Source: Sphingomonadaceae bacterium (GTDB taxonomy: Bacteria; Pseudomonadota; Alphaproteobacteria; Sphingomonadales; Sphingomonadaceae). Taken from it: a DNA stretch of 64,000 nt. Position numbers and translations under genes: made by a program. The stretch is from the NCBI GenBank assembly GCA_947476425.1, contig CANJQJ010000002.1, positions 1-64,000 on the forward strand, read 5' to 3'. Every line of letters begins with the position of its first letter. Within the stretch, counting starts at the first letter, position 1. This document shows positions 25,544-36,503 of the stretch, one piece after another. The notes beneath the pieces are model-generated. The model saw only the letters and a list, made by a program, of their open reading frames with translations, ran no database searches and was not told where the DNA came from.

Positions 25544-26149
25544 TCAGCAATAACGAACGCTGATCTTCTGGCGACGGCGCATCGCGCCGCCGACGAGGCC
25601 GAAGCCTCCAAGCATCATCGCCCATGAAGCAGGCTCGGGAACACCACCGCCGCTGATGCCGCCGATGACGAAGCTGACGTCATTATAATCATGATCGCCG
25701 CCGCCGTTCAGATCCTCGAAGGAAACGAACTGGCCGGCAGGAATGCCGAAATCGCCGCCGGCATACGCTGCTGAAAAGGCATGCTGCTGGCTGTCTGAGT
25801 TCAGCGATGCGTCCGAATAGAACAGGTCGCCGGTATCCGTGACCTTGATGTAGAAGGTCAGCACGTCACCGGCGGTGACCGGGCCGAAGTTCAGAGTAGC
25901 TCCGAGCGCGGTGGTGTGGTTGTTGAGGCCGAGGATGCCGGAATCAACGCCGTTCACCTGCACGCCGAGCAGATCCGTGTATCCGGCGCTGCTGCCAGCG
26001 AAATAGGCGAGAAGATCGCCTGTGGAGCTCGCAGTGAAGGAATAGGTATCGGGATTTTCTGTTCCCGGGGTTCCGTAGCTCGGAAATACCGCGAGAGCGG
26101 GTGCCGATACGGATGCCAGCGCAATCGCCAGAAGTGCAAGCTTCTTCAT
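25544..26149 (-). CDS. PEP-CTERM (PEPxxWA) sorted surface protein, DUF4114-like
   Basis: 201-residue secreted protein. Signal peptide MKKLALLAIALASVSAPALA; a beta-rich middle containing FEDLNGGGDHDYNDVSFVIGG, the acidic Asp/Asn motif typical of DUF4114-type calcium-binding domains; then the sorting tail VPEPASWAMMLGGFGLVGG followed by AMRRRQ. The PEP-x-x-W-A form is the subclass common in sphingomonads; exosortase would cut there and release or anchor the protein. The exosortase gene is not in this window. Start at ATG 26149 with CGGAA upstream; followed by its own terminator, so it is monocistronic. Confidence 0.9.
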   Translation of the reverse strand: MKKLALLAIALASVSAPALAVFPSYGTPGTENPDTYSFTASSTGDLLAYFAGSSAGYTDLLGVQVNGVDSGILGLNNHTTALGATLNFGPVTAGDVLTFYIKVTDTGDLFYSDASLNSDSQQHAFSAAYAGGDFGIPAGQFVSFEDLNGGGDHDYNDVSFVIGGISGGGVPEPASWAMMLGGFGLVGGAMRRRQKISVRYC

Positions 26150-26428
26150 GTCAGTTCCGCAATATAAACAGACTATCACAAGGAGCCGATTTACAACCCC
26201 TTTGTTGAAAACATGTGACAAACTTTAACGTAAATTTAGCACATATCAATAGGTATATCGTCCCAAATGGGGAAATGCGATGATCTGCAGATAAAGCGTC
26301 GCTTATGGATCGTTTCAAAGGCGGCGGGCGTTTAACGGATCGTTTCAGTGCGGTAGCGCCCATGTAGATCCGGCAACGTGGATCCATGCTTGCACGACCA
26401 CCCCTGCCCGGATTAAGCGCACGGCAAC
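26150..26428. other. AT-rich non-coding region upstream of the PEP-CTERM gene
   Basis: No credible gene. The half next to the PEP-CTERM start is AT-rich compared with its surroundings, as expected of a promoter; on the minus strand TTGATA near 26243-26248 is a weak -35 candidate. No sigma-54 (-24/-12) element was seen. A pair of 11-base direct repeats lies further out. Confidence 0.6.
26307..26347. repeat. Paired 11-base direct repeat upstream of the PEP-CTERM gene
   Basis: GGATCGTTTCA occurs at 26307-26317 and 26337-26347, exactly 30 bases (about three helical turns) apart, some 160-200 bases before the PEP-CTERM start. A related GGTCGTTTCA is at 26527-26536. A regulator site is possible but unproven. 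Confidence 0.5.
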
Positions 26429-26590: not shown

Positions 26591-26680
26591 GGAAGAGTGT
26601 CCGAGTGGTTTAAGGAACCGGTCTTGAAAACCGGCGACGGGGCGACCCGTCCGTGGGTTCGAATCCCACCTCTTCCGCCA
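26591..26680 (+). tRNA. tRNA-Ser(TGA)
   Basis: 90 nucleotides including an encoded CCA. Acceptor GGAAGAG pairs with CTCTTCC; D-arm TCCGAGTGGTTTAAGGA; anticodon stem CCGGT/ACCGG with loop CTTGAAA, anticodon TGA; a long variable arm (GACGGGGCGACCCGTC), typical of class II serine tRNAs; T-arm GTGGG-TTCGAAT-CCCAC; discriminator G. It ends 17 bases before the stop codon of the convergent 942-residue gene. Confidence 0.97.
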
Positions 26681-26697: not shown

Positions 26698-29526
26698 TCA
26701 TCCCGTCGCGAGCTTGCGCGATAGGGCGTGGGCGAGGGTGCGGAGTTTCTGCCATGCGAGCCACAGGCCGACACCGCCGACGATCGCGATCACCAGCAGG
26801 CCGCGCGGGCCGATCGGGGTACCGGCGGAATCCAGCATCCATTTGAACTGCAGGTGAGTGAGGTAAATGAAAAGCGAGGCGCCCGATATCATCAGGATCG
26901 GCCGGTTCAGCAGCTTCAGGATCGGCAAGCGCTTCACCAACAGCAGCAGCGCGCCCGAAGCGGCTATGAACGCCCAGCCCAGGTCCGGGAAGAACAGGGC
27001 CGTCGCTCCCGCATAGAGCGCCAGCATCGTCGCCATGAATGCCTTCTCCCGCAGGCTCCGGACGAAGGCGATCATCGCGCCGAGGATGAATGTCGGCCAG
27101 TGCGTGGTCGGGATATATTGGGCGAGATCTTCGAGCCCGGTCCGTAATATCAGGAAATTGTGGAAGAAAAGCGCCGGCACGATGAATTTCAGCGGGACTG
27201 CGACGGCAAGCATCGCGGCCGAAACCCGGTAGGGATTGGCCGTTAGCCGCGCGCTCCGGGAAGCGACGACGAACGCAATCGCGGTCATGCCAAGCAGCTG
27301 GATGATGCAATGCAGGTACCACAAATAGAATTCGCGCCCGACGCCGGCTTTCCCGATGAAATTGCTGTACAGCAGCGGTGTCGAGACACTCACCTGGCGT
27401 CCAGTGAAATAATCGAACGCATAGGCGGCGGCGCAATAGAGGATCGTCGGGACGAGGATCGACACCATCAGCCGCAGCACTGGCCTCACCGACTTCGCCA
27501 TGACCGATTCGGTCAGCTGGAGATGCCCGAACAGGAAGCCCGACACCAGGAAGAGGCCGCTCGTAGCACCGCCCGGATAGCCCGGGAACATGCTGAAATG
27601 ATAAGCGAGCACCATCATCAGCGCACCAGCGCGGATCAGCATCGCTGTATCGATGGTGCCCCAGATCGATCGCTTCGCGCTGGTTCCCCCGGCGAGTTGC
27701 CGAACGCTCATATGCGCCCAGTCTTCGGGCATGACGCCAAGCAGGTCCTCGGTCGCCAGATAGACCTGCACATAGCTCAGGCTGTCGCCGCCAAGGCTCG
27801 CATAGCTGCTGTCGCGCGAGATCATCCGCCGGTTGAGCAGCCCGGACCAGGCCGAGATGAGCGCGGCTTCCCCCGGGGACAAATCCACCTCGACGACCGC
27901 ATCGGCCAGGTCGGCCTCCGCGAGCGCCTCCAGCGCCCTGCGGTCGAGCTTGCCGTTGGGCAATAGCGGCATCGCATCGATCCGGACGATCTTCGCAGGG
28001 ACCATGTAACTCGGCAGCCGCTCACCCAGGAACTGGGTCAGCACGCCATCTACGTCGTCGATCACGCCAACGAAGATCGCGGTGATCGATCGCTCGAATT
28101 CGCTGGCGGGTGCAACCGCAAACGCCGCCTCGATATCCGGATGCGCGGCCAGTGCGGAGGCGACCTCGGCGAGATCGACTCGATAGCCGCGGACCTTGAT
28201 CTGGTCGTCCTGCCTGCCGATGATCGCGATATTGCCGTCGGGCAGGTAATAGCCGCGATCGCCGGTGTGATAAATCGTGCGCCGCCCGAAACGATCGATG
28301 CCGCGATCGTCGGGATCGGCCAGGATCGCGCCGGCTTCGACATAGCCGAGGCTCAGATAATTGGATCGGATCGCGATCTCGCCTTCCTCACCGATGCCCC
28401 TGGGCCGATAGTCCTGATCGACGATGGCGAGCTGGAAGCCATCCGAACCCTTGCCTACAGGCGCGGCTTTCAGCGCTTCGTCGCCACGCCAGCGATAATA
28501 GCCCGCCGCCTGTGGTGTCTCGGTCGCGCCGTAGAAATTGGTCACCTCGGCATTGGGTGCGAGCGCGCACAGCGCATCGATGACCTGCGGGCGGAGCATG
28601 TCGCCGCCCATGAAGATCCGGCGCAGGCAATCCAGCGCACGGGGCGAGCGCGCAGCGGTGAGCAATTGCGCCATCGCAGGAGTCATGTGGGCGACAGTCG
28701 GCTGCATCGCCTCGAACCATGAGGCGAGCTTGCCGGGTCCGAAAATCTCTTCCTGGTCGGGAATGAGCAGCGTCGCCCCGCGCGAAAGCGGCGCGAAGAT
28801 GTCGCGCATCAGCGGATCATGCGACAAGCCCGAGAGCATGGTGAAGCGATCATCTGATGATAAATCAAATGTTTGTGCCTGCCACCTTATAAAATGCGCG
28901 AGCGGAATGTGCGAACAGGCGACGCATTTCGGCACCCCTGTGCTGCCCGAGGTGAACAGGTAATAGGCCGGTGCCGCCGGGTCGATCGCTTCCGGCAGCG
29001 GAGACTCATCGCCCCTGAACGTCGTCAGCGTATCGACGAGCGGGATGCTGCGTTCCGTCGCCAGTTCGGTTGCGATGGTCCACCCCGGCGAACCGCTGCT
29101 AGCCAGCACCGCGTCGGGCATGCCGATATCGGCGAGCGTCTCGATGCGCCGGGCCGGATAGGCTGCGTCGAGCAGGATAAACACCGCACCGATCCGCGAG
29201 GCCGCGAGCAGCGCCCACACCAGCCACGGCTGCCGCTCGGCGATGATGACGACCCGCGATCCCGGGCCGATCCCCTTGGCCAGCAAGGCCCGCGCCAGCC
29301 CACGAGAACGCTCCTCGATCGTCGTGTAGCTGAATATCTCGCCATGATGCCGCAGTGCCGGAGCATCCGGACTGGCCTCGACATTCCGCAGGAAGGCGGC
29401 GTGAATCAGCTCGCCAGTCGCTGGCTCCAGCGGCGCGTCGAGATCAGGCAAAATGCCAGGCGGCGCCAAGGCGACCGAGGCGTCGAATATCTGGTCCTCC
29501 AGGGAGGAAGGTTCATTATATTCCAT
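26698..29526 (-). CDS. Adenylation-carrier-membrane acyltransferase fusion (NRPS-like)
   Basis: 942 residues in three parts. Residues about 40-535 are an adenylation domain with A3 FTSGSTGVPK (191-200), A5 NFYGATET (330-337), A7 YHTGDRGYY, A8 RGYRVDLAEV and A10 LPNGKLDRR with Lys527. Residues about 550-615 are a carrier domain with LGGDS, Ser582 being the phosphopantetheine site. From about 620 to the end is an acyltransferase-3 (OafA-like) membrane domain with YHFSMFPGYPGGATSGLFLV and many hydrophobic helices. There is no condensation or release domain. It could activate an acid, load it on the carrier and hand it to a lipid or sugar across the membrane, like DltA-DltC-DltB in one chain; the substrate is unknown. 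ATG 29526. Confidence 0.9.
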   Translation of the reverse strand: MEYNEPSSLEDQIFDASVALAPPGILPDLDAPLEPATGELIHAAFLRNVEASPDAPALRHHGEIFSYTTIEERSRGLARALLAKGIGPGSRVVIIAERQPWLVWALLAASRIGAVFILLDAAYPARRIETLADIGMPDAVLASSGSPGWTIATELATERSIPLVDTLTTFRGDESPLPEAIDPAAPAYYLFTSGSTGVPKCVACSHIPLAHFIRWQAQTFDLSSDDRFTMLSGLSHDPLMRDIFAPLSRGATLLIPDQEEIFGPGKLASWFEAMQPTVAHMTPAMAQLLTAARSPRALDCLRRIFMGGDMLRPQVIDALCALAPNAEVTNFYGATETPQAAGYYRWRGDEALKAAPVGKGSDGFQLAIVDQDYRPRGIGEEGEIAIRSNYLSLGYVEAGAILADPDDRGIDRFGRRTIYHTGDRGYYLPDGNIAIIGRQDDQIKVRGYRVDLAEVASALAAHPDIEAAFAVAPASEFERSITAIFVGVIDDVDGVLTQFLGERLPSYMVPAKIVRIDAMPLLPNGKLDRRALEALAEADLADAVVEVDLSPGEAALISAWSGLLNRRMISRDSSYASLGGDSLSYVQVYLATEDLLGVMPEDWAHMSVRQLAGGTSAKRSIWGTIDTAMLIRAGALMMVLAYHFSMFPGYPGGATSGLFLVSGFLFGHLQLTESVMAKSVRPVLRLMVSILVPTILYCAAAYAFDYFTGRQVSVSTPLLYSNFIGKAGVGREFYLWYLHCIIQLLGMTAIAFVVASRSARLTANPYRVSAAMLAVAVPLKFIVPALFFHNFLILRTGLEDLAQYIPTTHWPTFILGAMIAFVRSLREKAFMATMLALYAGATALFFPDLGWAFIAASGALLLLVKRLPILKLLNRPILMISGASLFIYLTHLQFKWMLDSAGTPIGPRGLLVIAIVGGVGLWLAWQKLRTLAHALSRKLATG

Positions 29527-29605: not shown

Positions 29606-29651
29606 TCAGCGCATCTTCTTGAGCCAGGCGCGCTCAGCGCATCTTCTTGAG
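29606..29651. repeat. 18-base direct duplication at the end of the FAD oxidoreductase gene
   Basis: TCAGCGCATCTTCTTGAG occurs at 29606-29623 and 29634-29651, a 28-base shift. The second copy encodes the last residues and the stop (LKKMR, stop) of the flavoenzyme; the first is an extra copy just downstream. It looks like a recent small tandem duplication. Confidence 0.8.
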
Positions 29652-31211
29652 GTAGCGCAAGGTGCGATCGGCTGCGATCCGGCCTGCAATGCCGGAGACT
29701 CCGCCGCCCGGATGGCTGCCCGCCCCGCCAAGGAACAGGCCAGGGACGGCAGGCTTGGGTCCGCCGAAGCCGGTCGCCGGGCGGTGCAGCCCGGAACGCA
29801 GCGGCCCGAAATCGACATGGGTGACGCAGCCATTGGTGGCGCCAACGCGCTTCTCGCGCTCGCGCGCGGTTTCGACGAAGCGGCCAACTTCCTTGTCGAA
29901 GCCGTCATAATATTCCGAAAGCTGCGCGATGATCGAGGTCATGGTCTTGTCCTTGAGCTCGGGCGACCAGCCCTCGCGGGCATCCACCGCCATCGCTGGC
30001 AAATAGAGATAGGCGACCGAGCAACCTTCCGGCGCCTGCGACGGATCGATGTTCGACATCGGGCTCACCGAAACGGCGTGGCGCTGCGGAATATCGCCGC
30101 GACGCGCCGAGGCGAAGCTCTCGCGCACCTCGTCGGGCACGCCGATCAGGCCAACGGCATTGTTGATGTTGGCACCGTCGTGGCGCAGATCCTGGTGGCG
30201 CTTGAGCCGCAAGGGCGCCGCCATCGCGACATTGGCGAGGAAAGGCGCCGCGTTCGAGCGGTTGGACGGCACATGCTCGATCCGCTGGAGCAGCCGTCGC
30301 TCGACCCCGCCGGGCGTGGTCAGCGCAAAGGTGGTGCGCGGGTCGCTCGTCGCGATGACGACCTTCGAGCGAAGTACTCGTCCGTCCGCAAGCCGCACGC
30401 CCTTGGCAGCACCGTCCTCGATCAGGATCTCGACCACCGGCGCATCCACCATTATCTCGGCGCCCGAGGCGGTGATGCTCGCGGCGAGCGCGTTCGAGAA
30501 GGATTGCAGACTGCCCACCGGCTTGCCGGTGCCGAGGCGGTGCGTGACTGCGAAGATCATGTAGGCGGCGGCATTGCCGTCATCGTCGAGAGGCCCCGCG
30601 CCAGCAGCGATCCCGGTCAGCAACCCGATCGTGGCTGGATGTTCGAACCATTCGCAAGCGACCTGGTCCGAGGTCGCCTTGGAGATGGCGATGAGCTGGT
30701 CCTTAAGCTTGACGTTGCGAACCGCGCCGCCGATCATCTTGCCCAGATTGCTGAAATCGGGCCGCCCCGGCTCAGCCATCATGATCGGGAAGCCGATGTC
30801 CATCAGCGCGTCCATGACTTCCATGAATTTGAGATATTGCTTGCCGTCGCCGGGGTGGATTCGGGCGATGTCGTCGGCGGTGCGCTTATAGTCGCGGAAC
30901 AGCGCGATCGAGCTGCCGTCGGGATGAAGATAGGCATAGCTCGGATCGGGATCGATTGTGCGAAGGCCATGCTTGGCGAGTTCGAGATCCTCGATAAGCC
31001 CGGAATTCCGCACGAACAGCAGCTCGACCGCGCATGGCGTGACCAGATAGTCCGGCGCTTCCGGGATCAAATAGCCCGACGTCGTCATCCCGCCGACCTT
31101 CGCCGATCGCTCGACCACGACGACCTTCTTCCCGGCACGGCTGAGATAGCCTGCCGCCGCCATGCCGTTGTGGCCGGCGCCGATGATGATGGCGTCGTGG
31201 ATGTCGGTCAT
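29634..31211 (-). CDS. CrtI/PYROXD2-like FAD-dependent oxidoreductase
   Basis: 525-residue flavoprotein of the phytoene desaturase superfamily. The N-terminal dinucleotide fold is IIIGAGHNGMAAAGYLSRAG with an acidic residue after the second strand (VVVVERS) and GGMTTSG; the C-terminal FAD segment is PGLFLGGAGSHPGGGVSGIAG. The HNG variant and overall length match the group of animal PYROXD2 and bacterial relatives rather than true carotenoid desaturases, and no carotenoid genes are nearby. Substrate unknown. ATG 31211. It is 107 bases upstream of the A-T-acyltransferase gene on the same strand, so the two may share a transcript. Confidence 0.87.
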   Translation of the reverse strand: MTDIHDAIIIGAGHNGMAAAGYLSRAGKKVVVVERSAKVGGMTTSGYLIPEAPDYLVTPCAVELLFVRNSGLIEDLELAKHGLRTIDPDPSYAYLHPDGSSIALFRDYKRTADDIARIHPGDGKQYLKFMEVMDALMDIGFPIMMAEPGRPDFSNLGKMIGGAVRNVKLKDQLIAISKATSDQVACEWFEHPATIGLLTGIAAGAGPLDDDGNAAAYMIFAVTHRLGTGKPVGSLQSFSNALAASITASGAEIMVDAPVVEILIEDGAAKGVRLADGRVLRSKVVIATSDPRTTFALTTPGGVERRLLQRIEHVPSNRSNAAPFLANVAMAAPLRLKRHQDLRHDGANINNAVGLIGVPDEVRESFASARRGDIPQRHAVSVSPMSNIDPSQAPEGCSVAYLYLPAMAVDAREGWSPELKDKTMTSIIAQLSEYYDGFDKEVGRFVETAREREKRVGATNGCVTHVDFGPLRSGLHRPATGFGGPKPAVPGLFLGGAGSHPGGGVSGIAGRIAADRTLRYLKKMR

Positions 31212-31337
31212 GGTCTTCCCCTCGCTTCGTTCGGCGGCGAACCTAGTCCATCGCCTGCGGCATTACCATTACGCGGCGTAAAATGGTGTTTGCCATAGAT
31301 GGAGTGGGATGACGTTGGATCGAACCCGCCTTCCCCC

Positions 31338-31450
31338 CGCTCATCCTGAGCAGGGGCTGAGCCTGTCGAAGACCCGTCTCGAAGGACAGCACCGGAGCGT
31401 CCTTCGAGACGCCATTTCGACAAGCTCAATGGCTCCTCAGGATGAGCGGG
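31338..31450. repeat. Dispersed nested inverted repeat, copy 3
   Basis: Same orientation and arms as copies 1 and 2, with one change in the left outer arm (CTCATCCTGAGCA). Unlike the others it lies between two genes on the same strand: downstream of the SDR at 31484 and upstream of the FAD oxidoreductase. Confidence 0.9.
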
Positions 31451-31483
31451 GGCGGGTTCAACCTGACGTCAACCCGGCGCGCC

Positions 31484-32302
31484 CTACCCCTGCGCCAGCA
31501 GCTTCGACGACGACGGCCCCTGCAGCCCGAACCCGGCGCGACCGCCATCCACTGGCAGCAAATGCCCGGTAATCATCCGCGCCTCGTCCGACGCCAGGAA
31601 CAGGATCGCATCCGCCTGGTCCTCGGGCTTGATCAGGCCGAGGATCGCCTGCTGCCCGGCGATCAGGTCAGCGATCATCTGGGCGTTGAAATGAATGTGG
31701 AGCATCGGCGTCTCGGTCGATCCCGGCAGTACCGCGTTCACGCGAATGCCATGCTTGGCATAGTCCGACGCCGCGAACAGCGTGATGTGGTTGAGCGCTG
31801 CCTTGGCGACGCCATAGGCCATTGGCGCGTGCCGCTCCGCCGCAAGCGACGCCATCGACGAGACGTTGACGATCGCACCAGCGCCAGCCGCCATCATCAC
31901 CTGCACCTCCTCGCGCATCAGCAGGAAGACGCTCTCCAGCGAGATCGCCATCGTCCGGCGGAAGGTCTCGAGGTCCGTGTCGTGGATCGAGCTGCCGGGG
32001 CGATCATTAACTGCGCCCCCGCCCAGCACATTGGCTGCGATGTCGAGCTTGCCGAGCAACGCGACCGTTCGCTTGACGAGTTCGGCAACTTCGCCGGGAT
32101 CGGTGCAATCCGCATGGATGTAGATCGCCTTGCCGCCCGCTTCGCGCATCTCGCGCGCCAGTGCCTCGCCGGGCTCGTCCTGGATGTCGCCAATGACGAC
32201 CGACGCACCTTCGGCGATGAACTTGCGCACGCTCGCGGCGCCCATGCCGCCAGCACCGCCCGCGACGAGCACGGCTTTTCCTTCAAACCTGTTTGGACGC
32301 AT
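31484..32302 (-). CDS. SDR family NAD(P)-dependent oxidoreductase
   Basis: 272-residue classical short-chain dehydrogenase. Cofactor motif VLVAGGAGGMGAAS (TGxxxGxG-like), NVLGGGA in place of NNAG, catalytic Ser in NVSSMAS and Tyr/Lys in YGVAK, then LPGSTETPM. An acidic residue after the second strand (GDIQDE) favours NAD+. The C-terminal GGRAGFGLQGP is of normal length. It is 20 bases downstream of the molybdopterin oxidoreductase and is probably the last gene of the P450 operon. Substrate unknown, likely a secondary alcohol. Confidence 0.9.
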   Translation of the reverse strand: MRPNRFEGKAVLVAGGAGGMGAASVRKFIAEGASVVIGDIQDEPGEALAREMREAGGKAIYIHADCTDPGEVAELVKRTVALLGKLDIAANVLGGGAVNDRPGSSIHDTDLETFRRTMAISLESVFLLMREEVQVMMAAGAGAIVNVSSMASLAAERHAPMAYGVAKAALNHITLFAASDYAKHGIRVNAVLPGSTETPMLHIHFNAQMIADLIAGQQAILGLIKPEDQADAILFLASDEARMITGHLLPVDGGRAGFGLQGPSSSKLLAQG

Positions 32303-32322
32303 CCGCTTGTTTTCCTTCTTGG

Positions 32323-34452
32323 CTAAACAGTCTCAGCCTCGACCCGGCGGATATCGACCGGGATCGCGGTCATGCGCGGCATGGCGTTGATCGTCTGGAG
32401 ATCGCGATCGGTGCTGATCAGCAGGTTGGGCGATGCGCCGTACGTCTTGAAATCCGCGTCGCCGGGAAAGGCGCCAAAGCCGTGGCTGATCGAGACGACG
32501 CCGTTGCGCAGCGCCCCATCGCTTTCGGCCAGCACCCGGATCGCGCCATTGTCGGAGCGGATCTCGATCCAGTCGCCCTCCCCGATCGCCTGGTCGGCCA
32601 TGTCGCCCGGATTCATGTAGGCGACATTATACGGCATCAGCCGCTGAAGCTCAGGCAGGTTGGCGCCCATCGAGTTCATCCGGTGGCGCGAGCGGCGGTT
32701 GATCATCCGGAACGCGAAGCCGTCGCTGGCCGGCGAATCCAGCTCTGCGCGCAACAGCCCGATTTCCGCCACGACATCATCGGGCATCGTCGCGAAGCGG
32801 CCAGCCGTCGCGGGATCGGCCGGCAGCGCATAGACTTCCTCGTCGTGATAATAGCCGCGCGGGTGGCGACGGATTTCGTCCAGAGATGCCGGCGCCCCCA
32901 CGAGCGTCATCGCGATCAGATCATCCTCGGTCGGCGCCGTCACCATGTCGAGTGCCGTCCCCATATAGTCGATCTGGACGCCGAGCCGAGCCGCCAGCGC
33001 CCACATCACCCACCATTCGTCGCACACTTCGGAATCGGCTGGCGGTGCCACGATCGGCGGCGTGTAGCGCGTATAAGGCGTCGGGAAGATGTTCGGCTCG
33101 AACAGGTAGATCGGCAGGTCCGGGCGCTCGAACTGGAGCTTGGGGGGCAGGATGTAGTGCGACATCTGCGCCGTAGCGGACATCGTCGGCTCGATGCTGA
33201 CGAGCAGGTCGAGCGCCTCGAGCGCCTTCGCCATCTTGCGCTGGTCGGGCACCGCACTCGCCGGATTTCCGCCATGGTTGAGCATGAAGCGAACCCGTCC
33301 GGCGCCCGGCTCGAGGATATCGTCGGCGAGCTTGCCAGTGACCATCTCGCCGCCGACCAGGCCATAATCGCCAAGCCGCGATTGCGGCCCGCTCTCCCAG
33401 GCGCGCGGCAATGGCACGACCTGCGCCGGCTTGGGGCCGCGATTGAGCACGAATCCCTGGTTGGGGATTCGTTCGCCGGCACGGATCATGCGGCCACAGA
33501 TCACGTTGAGCGCCTCGACGAGATGCTCGGCGAGATTGGAATGCGGCCCCATGTCGGTGCCGGTGCCAGTCGCGGCGATTCCGCGCTTGCCATCACGCGC
33601 GAACATTTCGGCGATCGCTTGCAACTGCTGCGCGGTGATCCCGGCGCGCTCGGCGACACGCTCGGCCGTGAACGGCGCGACCTGCGCGCGCAGCTGATCG
33701 AGATCGCCGACATGATCGGCGCAGAATTCCGCATCATGCCAGCCATTTTCGAGGACGATGCGCAGGATCGCGGCGAGGATCGCCGCGTCATGGCCGGGCA
33801 GCGGCTGGACGAACAGATCGGCATATTGCGCGGTCTCGGTGCGGCGCGGATCGATCACGATGAGCTTGAGGCCCCGCGCCTTGGCGGCCTTGATCCGCTT
33901 GACCGGATTGCGCGTATCGAGTTGCGCCATCGAGACCATCGGGTTGACGCCCATCACCATCGCGACATCGCTGGTCTGGAAATCCTGCTTGCCCGGCGGC
34001 CAGATGCCGAGCCGATATGCGGCGATAACCTTGGCCGACTGGTCGATCGTCAGCGTCGTGTAGAGCTTGTGCGATCCAAGCGCGCCGAGGAATCCGGGCA
34101 GCATGCCGAGGCCGGCGGTGGTGAAGAACCCGCCGGTGCCGCGGAAACCCGCAATCGCATCGGGGCCGTCCTCTTCGAGGATCGTGCGCAGCTTGGCGGC
34201 GATCTCGTCGAGCGCCTGTTCGAGCCCGATCTTGACGAAGCTGCCGTCGGGCTGGCGCTTCAACGGGTGAAGCAGCCGGCTCGGCTCGGTATGCGCCGAT
34301 GGCAGGGTCGATCCCTTCGAGCAGATATATCCGATGCTGCGGGGATCATCGCGATCCCCGTGCGCCGACACAGGTCGCCCCTCATCGTCGATCGTGACGA
34401 CGAGCCCGCAATGCCCGGTGCAGATGCGGCAATATGTCAGCGCTTCGGTCAT
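32323..34452 (-). CDS. Molybdopterin-dependent oxidoreductase (formate dehydrogenase/nitrate reductase superfamily)
   Basis: 709-residue cytoplasmic enzyme with no Tat signal. The N-terminal [4Fe-4S] site is CRICTGHC plus CSKG (Cys8, 11, 15, 44). The molybdopterin domains follow, including MGVNPMVSMAQLDTRNP and LIVIDPRRTETAQYADLFVQP, and the C-terminal dinucleotide-binding-type barrel around SRHRMNSMGANLPEL. No FdhD, chaperone, iron-sulfur or membrane subunit is next to it. It sits between a P450 (1 base away) and an SDR, so a hydroxylation or dehydrogenation step in a catabolic pathway is more likely than formate respiration. ATG 34452. Confidence 0.9.
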   Translation of the reverse strand: MTEALTYCRICTGHCGLVVTIDDEGRPVSAHGDRDDPRSIGYICSKGSTLPSAHTEPSRLLHPLKRQPDGSFVKIGLEQALDEIAAKLRTILEEDGPDAIAGFRGTGGFFTTAGLGMLPGFLGALGSHKLYTTLTIDQSAKVIAAYRLGIWPPGKQDFQTSDVAMVMGVNPMVSMAQLDTRNPVKRIKAAKARGLKLIVIDPRRTETAQYADLFVQPLPGHDAAILAAILRIVLENGWHDAEFCADHVGDLDQLRAQVAPFTAERVAERAGITAQQLQAIAEMFARDGKRGIAATGTGTDMGPHSNLAEHLVEALNVICGRMIRAGERIPNQGFVLNRGPKPAQVVPLPRAWESGPQSRLGDYGLVGGEMVTGKLADDILEPGAGRVRFMLNHGGNPASAVPDQRKMAKALEALDLLVSIEPTMSATAQMSHYILPPKLQFERPDLPIYLFEPNIFPTPYTRYTPPIVAPPADSEVCDEWWVMWALAARLGVQIDYMGTALDMVTAPTEDDLIAMTLVGAPASLDEIRRHPRGYYHDEEVYALPADPATAGRFATMPDDVVAEIGLLRAELDSPASDGFAFRMINRRSRHRMNSMGANLPELQRLMPYNVAYMNPGDMADQAIGEGDWIEIRSDNGAIRVLAESDGALRNGVVSISHGFGAFPGDADFKTYGASPNLLISTDRDLQTINAMPRMTAIPVDIRRVEAETV

Positions 34453-34453
34453 G

Positions 34454-35719
34454 TCAGTGTGTCCGCATCGGGATGCTGAGCGGGGCGAGCTCGCCGGTCA
34501 AGCCCCGATAGCTTGGCTGGAAGCCGGGATCGACGAGCTTGAGATCGGGGAAGCGCTCAAGCATTCGAAGCAGCGCCGTGCGCAGGATATTGCGCGCAAG
34601 GCGACGGCCGATGCAATGATGGATTCCCGATCCGAACACCAGCGGCGCGCGGATCTTGCGGCGAATGTCGAAACGGAACGGATCTTCATATTCGCTCGGA
34701 TCATAGCCCGACGCCAGCGGCGAGACATAGACCGGCATGTCCTTTGGAATGCGAGTCCCGCCGACCTCGGTATCGCATGCCGCGAAACGAACGAACGAGA
34801 CGATGCCGGGCCCGTTGAGGCGAAGGCATTCCTCGATCGCATTATCGACCAGCCCGGGCTCGGCGAGCAGCTCGGCCTTCGTCTCGGGGTGGCGGCAGAA
34901 CAGCATCAGCGCACCGCCAAGCGTGTTGGCGGTGGTGCCGATTCCGGCGGTGGCGATCGAGTTGATCTGGCCGAACAGCTCGTTGTCGGTCAGCTTGTCG
35001 CCTTCCTCGCGAGCGCTGATCAGGCTGCTGATCAGGTCGGGACCCGGGGTCTCGCGGCGAATGCGGATGATCTCGGCGATCGCCTCGCTCACCCCGCCGA
35101 TCGCCTGCATGAACGAGGGCGGCAGGCCCTCGGCGGCATCGTAGGACGGCAGCTTGTTCATCTCGTCCTGCATCTGCCCGAACACGGCGATATGCGCCGG
35201 GCTGAGCTTGAACGATCCCTCGAGCATGATGCGCGGGATGAGCTTGTCCGCAAAATCGACCATCGCATCGAATTCGGGGCCGGATTCGGCGATCTTGTCG
35301 AGCTGCTCGTCGATGATCCGCACGACATCCGCCTGCTGCGCGTCGATCGCCTGCGGCGTGAAGGAGGGGTTCATCAGCTTGCGAACGCGATTGTGGCGGG
35401 CGCCGTCCATCTGCAGCACGCTTTCGAGCCCGCCGAACATGTCGAACAGCTCATAGCCCTCGCGCTTCGGGGCGACGACGGTAAATCGCTCGGCATCGGT
35501 ATAGACCTCGCGAATGTCGCGGCCTCGGCCGCACATCACCGAGAGGATGCCGTTCTGGCGGATGTAGAATGGCCGCCGCATTCCCCAGCTCGCCACGACG
35601 CCGTTGAGCGCGGTCTGGCGAAGCTGCTCGTCGCCGAGCCACATCGGGAAATAATTGCCTGGCTCGAGTTCATCGAGGGAGGCGACCGAGCAATCGCGGA
35701 TCGGGACGTGATCAGTCAT
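34454..35719 (-). CDS. Cytochrome P450
   Basis: 421-residue soluble bacterial P450. The I-helix motif is TAGIGTTAN (oxygen activation), the ExxR is EECLR, and the heme-binding loop is FGSGIHHCIGRRLAR with the Cys thiolate ligand. ATG 35719 (MTDHVPIRD) gives the usual length; 39 codons upstream lie inside the SDR gene in another frame. It overlaps the upstream SDR by 8 bases and is 1 base from the molybdoenzyme gene. Electron partners (ferredoxin, ferredoxin reductase) are not in this cluster. Substrate unknown; related enzymes in sphingomonads act on terpenoids, steroids and similar ring compounds. Confidence 0.94.
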   Translation of the reverse strand: MTDHVPIRDCSVASLDELEPGNYFPMWLGDEQLRQTALNGVVASWGMRRPFYIRQNGILSVMCGRGRDIREVYTDAERFTVVAPKREGYELFDMFGGLESVLQMDGARHNRVRKLMNPSFTPQAIDAQQADVVRIIDEQLDKIAESGPEFDAMVDFADKLIPRIMLEGSFKLSPAHIAVFGQMQDEMNKLPSYDAAEGLPPSFMQAIGGVSEAIAEIIRIRRETPGPDLISSLISAREEGDKLTDNELFGQINSIATAGIGTTANTLGGALMLFCRHPETKAELLAEPGLVDNAIEECLRLNGPGIVSFVRFAACDTEVGGTRIPKDMPVYVSPLASGYDPSEYEDPFRFDIRRKIRAPLVFGSGIHHCIGRRLARNILRTALLRMLERFPDLKLVDPGFQPSYRGLTGELAPLSIPMRTH

Positions 35720-36503
35720 CGGGAAGCTCCATCGACCAGCTTGCGCCGTTGATATGGGATCCGCCGTCAACGAAGATCGTGTTGCCGGTTGTGTAGCGCG
35801 CATCCTCGCTCGCGAGGAAAAGCGCGACGCCGGCAATATCCTCGTCGGGATCGCCGAGGCGGCCCATCGGTGGCGTCGGCAGTGCGGCGGCGAGTTCGGG
35901 GCTGGTCTCGGCGAATTCGCGGAATGCGCGGGTCATCGCGGCCGGGCAGATGATGTTGGCGCAGATCTGGTGCGGCGCCCATTCGCGGGCGATCGTGCGG
36001 GTAAGCGCGCGAAGGGCTTCCTTGCCGACATTATATTCGAGCGTGCCGATATGCGCGTTGGTGCCGTTCAGCGAGCAGATGCTGATGATCCGCCCCCAGC
36101 TCTTGTCCCGCATATGGGGGAAAGCCGCCTTCACCGCCCAGAAACCGGCCCACAAGTTCATCGACAGGCCATATTGCAGCTCGGCGTCGCTCTTGTTCTC
36201 GGCGCGCCGGAAGCTGCCTCCGCCCCAGGCGTTGTTGACGAGAATGTCGACGCCGCCGAAACGCTCAACGGTATCGGCGACCATCGCCTCGACCTGCGCC
36301 TTGTCGGTAACGTCGGTGCGGATGAAATGCGCGCCGTTGCCGATCGCGTCGGCAGCGGCCTGACCGTTTTCGGCGTTGATCTCGGCGATCACGACCCTGG
36401 CGCCTTCATTGGCGAAGCGCCGGGCAATGCCGAGCCCGATCCCCTCGCCGCCGCCGGTAACGATTGCGATCTTGCCGGCGATCCGGCCACTGCTGCTGTT
36501 CAA
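35712..36503 (-). CDS. SDR family oxidoreductase
   Basis: 263-residue classical SDR: cofactor motif VTGGGEGIGLGIA, NNAWGG, catalytic Ser in SICSLNG and YNVGK, then CPAAMTRAF. AEINAEN after the second strand suggests NAD+. TTG start at 36503 with AAGGGA 8 bases upstream. First gene of a tight operon SDR - P450 - molybdopterin oxidoreductase - SDR. It would be expected to oxidise the alcohol made by the P450, but this is inference from position. Confidence 0.9.
   Translation of the reverse strand: MNSSSGRIAGKIAIVTGGGEGIGLGIARRFANEGARVVIAEINAENGQAAADAIGNGAHFIRTDVTDKAQVEAMVADTVERFGGVDILVNNAWGGGSFRRAENKSDAELQYGLSMNLWAGFWAVKAAFPHMRDKSWGRIISICSLNGTNAHIGTLEYNVGKEALRALTRTIAREWAPHQICANIICPAAMTRAFREFAETSPELAAALPTPPMGRLGDPDEDIAGVALFLASEDARYTTGNTIFVDGGSHINGASWSMELPDD

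Follow-up and report, generated by a model that had tools for sequence, protein, structure and literature searches.

A nonribosomal peptide synthetase-like protein ending in an AT3 membrane domain in a Sphingomonadaceae bacterium, a candidate carrier-fed aminoacyl transferase

What could be made by a protein that activates and tethers its substrate in the manner of a nonribosomal peptide synthetase (NRPS) and then ends in a membrane acyltransferase? The question is raised by an open reading frame (ORF) of 942 codons at positions 26698-29526, minus strand, of the first 64,000 nucleotides of contig CANJQJ010000002.1 from a Sphingomonadaceae bacterium (assembly GCA_947476425.1); this whole stretch is called the window below. 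The ORF encodes an adenylation (A) domain, a carrier (T) domain and a membrane domain of the acyltransferase-3 (AT3) type in one protein, and frame 1 of the plus strand over the same interval is interrupted by stops. The architecture is real and conserved, and is best read as that of an NRPS module which terminates in the membrane and which, in this organism, has shed its condensation (C) domain. Judging from sequence comparisons and structure models, we consider it probable that the protein is a self-contained aminoacyl transferase, whose A domain would load the fused carrier and whose AT3 domain would pass the group in cis to an extracytoplasmic acceptor. The chief point of interest is the carrier-fed AT3: membrane acyltransferases of the AT3 type are thought to be fed by coenzyme A (CoA), so the passage of an aminoacyl group from a carrier to an AT3 domain would be unusual. 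The parts of the protein referred to below are these.

26698..29526, minus strand: whole gene, A-T-AT3 protein of 942 amino acids (ORF and Pfam)
29392..29478, minus strand: probable remnant of a C-A linker, residues 17-45, the homologous stretch continuing to residue 75 (alignment to relatives L046 and L048)
28342..29388, minus strand: large part of the A domain, residues 47-395 (PF00501, 206.6 bits; Foldseek matches LgrA and GrsA)
28795..28821, minus strand: A4-A5 motif HDPLMRDIF, residues 236-244, with three pocket positions (D, P, R)
27949..28167, minus strand: small part of the A domain, residues 454-526, with catalytic Lys526 (PF13193, 29.2 bits; K526 in 45/45 rows)
27688..27876, minus strand: carrier domain, residues 551-613 (PF00550, 20.3 bits when scanned alone; peptidyl-carrier fold, Z 8.6)
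27781..27783, minus strand: Ser582, the expected phosphopantetheine site (invariant, 45/45)
27718..27732, minus strand: MPEDW, residues 599-603, the family-specific [LVAM]PxxW after carrier helix 2 (P600 and W603, 45/45)
26704..27648, minus strand: AT3 membrane domain, residues 627-941 (PF01757, 34.1 bits when scanned alone; HGSNAT fold, Z 14.5)
27598..27633, minus strand: R632-X10-H643, the AT3 motif of the first transmembrane helix (45/45 family rows, 20/20 canonical rows)
26854..26871, minus strand: FIYLTH, residues 886-891, with His891 (45/45 family rows, 19/20 canonical rows)

The two parts of the A domain were recognised by Pfam in a scan of the whole protein, AMP-binding (PF00501) at residues 47-395 and AMP-binding_C (PF13193) at residues 454-526, while the other two domains gave borderline scores. 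Acyl_transf_3 (PF01757, residues 630-924) reached 30.9 bits in the whole protein, just below its cut-off of 31, and rose above it when the domain was scanned alone and in the genome search (33.0 bits). The diverged carrier had no PP-binding (PF00550) match at E<=0.001 in the whole-protein scan, and its fragment scanned alone fell just short of the cut-off of 20.8; a GGDS sequence that begins at residue 579 places the carrier serine at Ser582. Chance is an unlikely source of such low scores, since the folds agree with them and S582, R632 and H643 are invariant in the 45 rows of the family alignment described below and in six more relatives. The set of domains given by an earlier sequence-only reading of this DNA, with Ser582 in the carrier and a membrane domain of OafA type, was thus borne out by Pfam, by the GGDS motif and by the folds.

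The fold evidence comes from AlphaFold2 models. The carrier and AT3 domains were modelled as one unit with high confidence (predicted local distance difference test score, pLDDT, 92.3; predicted template modelling score, pTM, 0.92), and the full protein gave a pLDDT of 88.7 and a pTM of 0.66. In a structure comparison of the carrier-AT3 model, the fold of HGSNAT, a transmembrane acetyltransferase whose structure was solved with acetyl-CoA, came first (Z 14.5 over 281 residues), followed among other folds by GWT1 (8.9), and peptidyl-carrier domains were matched with a best Z of 8.6 over 70 residues. As the comparison tool quotes a best Z of about 14 for mostly helical models, the weight of the HGSNAT match lies in the gap to GWT1 and to unrelated chains (<=5.9) and in a Foldseek probability of 1.00, not in the Z score alone; plain Foldseek also ranked HGSNAT first, with an E value of only 9.4e-3. 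Foldseek matched the A domain to LgrA and GrsA, and LgrA was the top structure match for the A and T domains.

Relatives were sought in genome contigs from 84,980 species by a profile search with a three-row carrier-AT3 alignment as query, the contig scan making use of the peptide patterns SLFIYLTH and DSL[SN][YF]V[QE][VI][YC]. It returned 72 related loci; with the window protein as a single query the contig scan gave no match. A single ORF of at least 700 codons runs from the A region to the end of AT3 in 66 of the 72; a genome survey for this domain order had been proposed in the sequence-only reading. The remaining six loci comprise one split over two frames (L058), one whose alignment ends early (L095), one at a contig edge (L112) and three free-standing AT3 proteins (L105, L111 and L113). 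A separate acyltransferase gene had been named beforehand as a sign against the fused system; it occurs in these 3 of 72 loci, a class that is under-sampled because the query included the carrier. A search of 59 related genomes with the whole protein found a broken second copy in the bacterium's own genome and a diverged A-T-AT3 protein with a stop in another (G030), all other matches being limited to the A and carrier region. When 385 genomes of the class were searched with the membrane part alone, three had a match, one of them being the bacterium's own. A literature search restricted to open-access papers turned up no relevant paper on such an A-carrier-AT3 fusion.

The family falls into two subfamilies which have the carrier-AT3 back end in common and differ in their A domains. 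Subfamily 1, with an NRPS-type A domain, contains the window protein and proteins of Phenylobacterium, Sandaracinobacteroides, Sandarakinorhabdus, Pseudorhodobacter, Paracoccus and beta- and gammaproteobacteria; subfamily 2 is, in this sample, mostly actinobacterial. Conservation was read from an alignment of 45 rows, i.e. the window protein and 44 of 69 related ORFs, a selection made to keep redundancy low (even so, seven pairs of AT3 regions exceed 80% identity). K526, S582, P600, W603, R632, H643 and H891 are invariant in all 45, and the first six of these were also kept in all six relatives found without the peptide patterns. The [LVAM]PxxW motif after the carrier serine, present in every family row, was found in none of eight ordinary NRPS carriers. 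The AT3 residues recur in canonical AT3s, R-X10-H being found in 20/20 canonical rows and the FIYLTH-type histidine in 19/20.

On the basis of this anatomy we propose the following mechanism, in which the loading, the transfer and its direction are what we infer. The A domain would form an aminoacyl adenylate and transfer the aminoacyl group to the carrier's phosphopantetheine arm, which the phosphopantetheinyl transferase AcpS would have attached. The carrier would dock against AT3 from the cytoplasmic side, with the loaded arm inserted into the AT3 cavity where acyl-CoA sits in ordinary AT3s, and a centre of R632 and H643, probably with H891, would hand its cargo to an acceptor hydroxyl or amine on the outer face. 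The acceptor would probably be a glycan or glycolipid.

Such a mechanism requires a donor other than the usual one. According to the available part of a review of AT3 proteins (PMC9558356), the evidence favours acyl-CoA over acyl carrier protein as the physiological donor. RXXR, a highly but not absolutely conserved AT3 motif at the cytoplasmic face of the third transmembrane helix (TM3), has been connected with CoA: in the simulations of OafB described in the text available to us, Arg74 of RXXR, Arg14 of R-X10-H, Lys279 and Arg338 contact the CoA 3'-phosphate (PMC9833829), and the accessible text on OafA reports that the variants R69A and R72A retained 0.10% and 0.07% of the wild-type signal (PMC7448272). 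The corresponding stretch of the window protein, SVRPVLRLMVSILVP, is without the motif. When the register was defined as basic residues at -6 and -3 before the TM3 proline, both positions were basic in 17 of the 19 distinct canonical AT3s but in 0/45 family rows and 0/6 additional relatives, the two canonical exceptions (L126 and L138) having an R-x-x-R that is shifted in the alignment. The canonical set consisted of 19 of the 30 AT3 loci L118-L147 that passed a filter, together with an OafA-like protein of L062, and one duplicate pair reduces it to 19 distinct proteins; the filter, a hidden Markov model, was seeded with a canonical AT3, which may have biased the set. A carrier-bound arm has no CoA 3'-phosphate.

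Several observations on the AT3 domain speak against this account. An RXXR anywhere in the last 18 residues was seen in 22/45 family rows (canonical rows, 20/20). Off-register occurrences were found in 20/31 rows of subfamily 2 and in 2/14 of subfamily 1, so the statement that RXXR was lost is strongest, on these alignments, for subfamily 1. R632 is kept throughout the family although its OafB equivalent, Arg14, contacts the 3'-phosphate too in the simulation, and a pure loss of CoA binding would not require its retention. The free-standing relatives (L105:9962-10939, L111:9974-10951 and L113:9974-10903) also lack the register, so its loss is not strictly tied to the fusion; their loci contained no A-domain ORF matching the window protein at E<=1e-3, and they could have arisen from fused proteins or be supplied by a separate carrier acting in trans. 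As for H891, it is replaced by glutamine in one of the six pattern-independent relatives, that of Rhodococcus fascians (L039:9959-12571). The conservation of this histidine and of FIYLTH is largely due to the construction of the search, since 42/45 rows hold SLFIYLTH, the very pattern that found them (the second pattern is held by 4/45); this does not apply to S582.

The same observations bear on the view that AT3 works here as an ordinary acyltransferase fed by acyl-CoA, with the A-T part serving another step and the fusion merely co-locating the two. R632, H643 and the TmAT fold are indeed those of acyl-CoA users, and the donor preference given in the review, the retention of R632 and the free-standing relatives without RXXR all agree with it. 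It is nevertheless improbable in our judgement: the RXXR register is missing from every family row, the carrier is modelled as a unit with AT3, [LVAM]PxxW is kept throughout, and no conserved user of the loaded carrier was seen beside the subfamily-1 genes, bar a subfamily-2 gene in three loci. The wider form of the carrier-fed proposal holds that there is a second way of feeding AT3 proteins, by a thioester on a fused NRPS carrier and not by acyl-CoA, that the RXXR site for the CoA phosphate was given up with it, and that C-A-T-AT3 is a new, membrane-crossing way of terminating an NRPS; we regard its chances as close to even, falling slightly short.

The relatives bear on the origin of the protein. 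Of the 14 subfamily-1 proteins, 8 gave a PF00668 condensation match and thus have the order C-A-T-AT3. Motifs and alignment identify them as L044, L045, L047-L051 and L055, and one more, L046, retains no more than the latter half of a C domain. The C domains of L055, an outer member, and L044 are homologous (30% identity over about 396 residues). In the tree, the window protein and its paralogue on contig C23 are nested in a clade of 11 rows, eight of them C-bearing, with a support of 100/99, the order inside the clade being left open. The stretch from residue 17 to residue 75 of the window protein aligned to L046 214-272 (51%, E 1.8e-14) and L048 430-488 (42%, E 2.3e-13), both of which cover the C-A linker and the start of the A domain. 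Because the window protein begins inside its relatives' C-A linker, its lineage has probably lost the C domain, which the majority of its alphaproteobacterial relatives possess; loss is the simplest reading of these alignments, and a gain remains compatible with the tree alone. The absence of a condensation or release domain noted in the sequence-only reading agrees with the Pfam scan of the protein, and the whole genome (88 contigs, estimated to be 99.39% complete) has no PF00668 match at E<=0.001. The ancestral alphaproteobacterial form would have been an NRPS module C-A-T-AT3 in which the C domain first couples the amino acid to another acyl group; without it, the window lineage would transfer the bare aminoacyl group.

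Two arrangements of the same parts were noted in passing. In Pseudorhodobacter turbinis (L038:10682-14718) a C domain, identified by eye, and A-T-AT3 form two overlapping ORFs, unlike P. aquimaris (L049), where both lie in a single ORF. In three of the eight C-A-T-AT3 loci (L044, L045 and L047) the gene immediately alongside is an A-T-AT3 gene of subfamily 2, as if two carriers served one product.

If the C domain was lost, function could have been lost with it, and the paralogue adds to this concern. This second copy (G000, contig C23, L035:243-2850), whose pieces are 51% and 61% identical to the window protein, is disrupted twice, the reading frame changing within its A domain and a stop falling close to the end of AT3; upstream of it is a stretch that by eye resembles the end of an IS5-type transposase. 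The window copy might then be a remnant that no longer makes its product and is heading for the fate of the C23 copy, a view with which the half-lost C domain of L046 in another genome and the lack of any PF00668 match at home would agree. We think this quite unlikely, as the 942 codons are open and all the named catalytic residues and the whole 10-letter A-domain code are unchanged; moreover, the beta- and gammaproteobacterial proteins L052, L053, L054 and L062, in which no C domain was seen, keep the same residues.

The A domain offers some hints as to what a self-contained transferase would carry. Its 10-letter code, read at the GrsA positions, is nearly constant in subfamily 1, as would suit a single conserved substrate: DPRHFGFQAK stands in 9/14 rows, and each of the remaining five departs from it at one to three positions. 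In subfamily 2 it is CYSATAMARK in 26/31 rows. The sequence-only reading had pointed out that the segment LSHDPLMRDIF departs from the FDxS form of amino-acid-activating domains and that the substrate may be unusual. The phenylalanine is indeed absent, but the aspartate of the A4-A5 motif, the residue that binds the alpha-amino group in adenylation domains, keeps its place, and the two code positions after it are filled by Pro and Arg. The same motif occurs in a Streptomyces NRPS at a locus with a lantibiotic dehydratase. The aminoadipate enzyme Lys2 shares DPRHF at the first five code positions and differs at positions 6-8, and the Lys2 family TIGR03443 was the second best NCBIfam match of the window protein (302.9 bits). 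Because Pro and Arg are shared with Lys2, our guess, by analogy, is an acidic amino acid; a literature search for the code DPRHF/DPRHFV returned no adenylation-domain paper, and no substrate is named from the code. Against an amino acid as the substrate it may be held that the amino-acid adenylation family TIGR01733 gave 317.3 bits, a hair under its cut-off of 317.4.

For priming, one PF01648 protein, the sole phosphopantetheinyl transferase found in the genome, is encoded between pdxJ-like and lepB-like genes and, inspected by eye, reads as AcpS in its sequence and gene position. In the Dlt pathway, according to the available part of the source, AcpS primes DltC (PMC9338922), and by analogy it could prime the window carrier as well.

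It was the Dlt system with which the sequence-only reading had compared the protein, as DltA, DltC and DltB compressed in one chain. The logic of activation, tethering and transfer holds: as far as the accessible text of the same source goes (PMC9338922), Dlt likewise has an A domain, a carrier and a membrane acyltransferase acting across the membrane, and the anatomy, the conserved residues and the model of the carrier on AT3 fit that logic. The descent does not. The window protein is one polypeptide, its membrane part is AT3/TmAT and not MBOAT (no match to an MBOAT family in Pfam at E<=10), its A domain misses the cut-offs of the DltA-type ligases widely (NF003417, 202.4 vs 476; TIGR01734, 188.5 vs 559.85), and its nearest relatives are NRPS modules of the C-A-T-AT3 kind.

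From other known systems the family is set apart mainly by its C-terminus. With AT3 proteins such as OafA, OafB and OatA (PF01757) it shares the Pfam match, R-X10-H, the FIYLTH-type histidine and the TmAT fold; it differs in lacking the RXXR register in 45/45 rows and in having a fused N-terminal A domain and carrier, while in ordinary AT3s, as stated in the accessible part of the review, stand-alone proteins are most frequent and SGNH is the commonest fusion (PMC9558356). With NRPS modules such as LgrA the A and T domains, and in relatives the C domain, are held in common, but an AT3 membrane domain stands at the release-domain position. In NRPSs this position is taken by thioesterase, reductase or C domains. 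Lys2, for all its second rank among the NCBIfam matches, is far off, the score lying well below its cut-off of 1030.1 and the C-terminus being AT3, with no reductase domain.

A similar outline is that of the membrane-bound poly-amino-acid synthetases, of which those of the Pls kind have soluble tandem domains. In the available text, enzymes of the Pls/PosA kind combine an NRPS-like A domain, a carrier and a terminal transmembrane domain (PMC10522769), and the A domain of the window protein matches that of epsilon-poly-lysine synthase with 124.7 bits. We nevertheless consider a homopolymer-forming enzyme of this kind very improbable: many NRPS A domains gave stronger matches, the membrane part belongs to AT3/TmAT and resembles HGSNAT (no search with a Pls profile was made), and the ORF ends with the AT3 domain, no soluble tandem domains being apparent.

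The genes around the window ORF tell little about the acceptor. Upstream, at 29634-36503 and in one direction, lie genes for a short-chain dehydrogenase/reductase (SDR), a cytochrome P450, a molybdopterin oxidoreductase, a second SDR and a CrtO-like flavoenzyme. We considered an operon with the SDR, P450 and molybdopterin genes and set it aside, since proximity to a molybdopterin gene says little when the family is expanded in the genome: the protein has 11 matches at E<=1e-60 there, itself included. When 12 window neighbours were tested, only the two SDRs were matched in 80 related loci. The flavoenzyme, which the sequence-only reading had proposed as a modifier of substrate or product, is not a conserved partner, as no homologue was found among the ORFs of the 80 loci (reach <=10-12 kb either side). 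At E<=1e-60 it occurs, of the 59 genomes, only in the bacterium's own, in two copies, the second being 77% identical, on contig C3 with SDR genes and with no A-T-AT3 match in the surrounding 19 kb. The 11 molybdopterin matches and this second flavoenzyme suggest an expanded catabolic set. Downstream, 25544-26221 encodes a PEPxxWA-CTERM protein that matches DUF4114; a single exosortase match was found in the genome, and it lies on another contig, C31, in an apparent exopolysaccharide locus. A tRNA-Ser gene (TGA) at 26591-26680 on the other strand converges with the A-T-AT3 gene and lies 17 bases beyond its 3' end; tRNA sites of this kind often border integrated elements.

It is the relatives that offer indirect evidence: some of them lie in or near polysaccharide loci, in keeping with the decoration of a glycan, one of the acceptors supposed in the sequence-only reading. 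L062 is found among genes resembling EpsL, UDP-glucose dehydrogenase and WecG/EpsA (the equivalog cut-offs of EpsL and EpsA not being reached); the diverged G198 protein (L037) has several glycosyltransferases near it, among them a sugar transferase of the XrtA system that scores above cut-off; close to L047 there is a sugar transferase that passes the EPS_sugtrans cut-off, while L048 is near GtrA and the free-standing L105 among polysaccharide genes.

The window gene itself, in contrast, stands outside any glycan locus, and other relatives point elsewhere. The subfamily-2 gene of Rhodococcus fascians and that of Mycolicibacterium rufum adjoin genes annotated as an iron ATP-binding cassette (ABC) transporter, and solute-binding-protein or permease genes lie near the subfamily-2 gene in L083 and L063. 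These ABC transporter neighbours of four actinobacterial loci count against a glycan, since glycan decoration does not predict them. Within the proposed mechanism, then, the acceptor might be a small exported metabolite such as a metallophore and not a glycan or lipid, with which the NRPS ancestry of the family would also be in keeping. We hold this variant, a part of the aminoacyl transferase proposal and not an addition to it, to be unlikely though worth bearing in mind: the subfamily-1 proteins L062, L047 and L048, as well as the G198 protein and the free-standing L105, are near polysaccharide genes, and a scan of the window gene with nine ORFs around it showed no siderophore genes.

Other features of the neighbourhoods are recorded here for completeness. 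The four actinobacterial loci with iron-type or solute-binding ABC transporter genes just described are L039, L041, L083 and L063; a loose cluster of neighbours, formed by BLAST, covers 33 loci, its identity having been checked only in part. On a Rhizobium plasmid (L040) a single gene separates the A-T-AT3 gene from YcaO and TfuA genes that lie side by side.

The window protein, a candidate self-contained aminoacyl transferase, would by analogy work like Dlt without being Dlt. If the proposal is true, AT3 proteins with a built-in carrier would be a natural exception to the acyl-CoA donor rule as it appears in the available part of the AT3 review (PMC9558356). A family in which the carrier is built in and the CoA-contact motif is gone from its usual place also provides a clean test of the role of RXXR. 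The C-A-T-AT3 relatives would be one-module synthetases that hand their product straight across the membrane to an extracytoplasmic acceptor, synthesis, release and export being a single act. On this view, there may be a route other than that of Dlt by which amino acids are attached to molecules of the bacterial surface, and NRPS modules may end in a membrane transferase.

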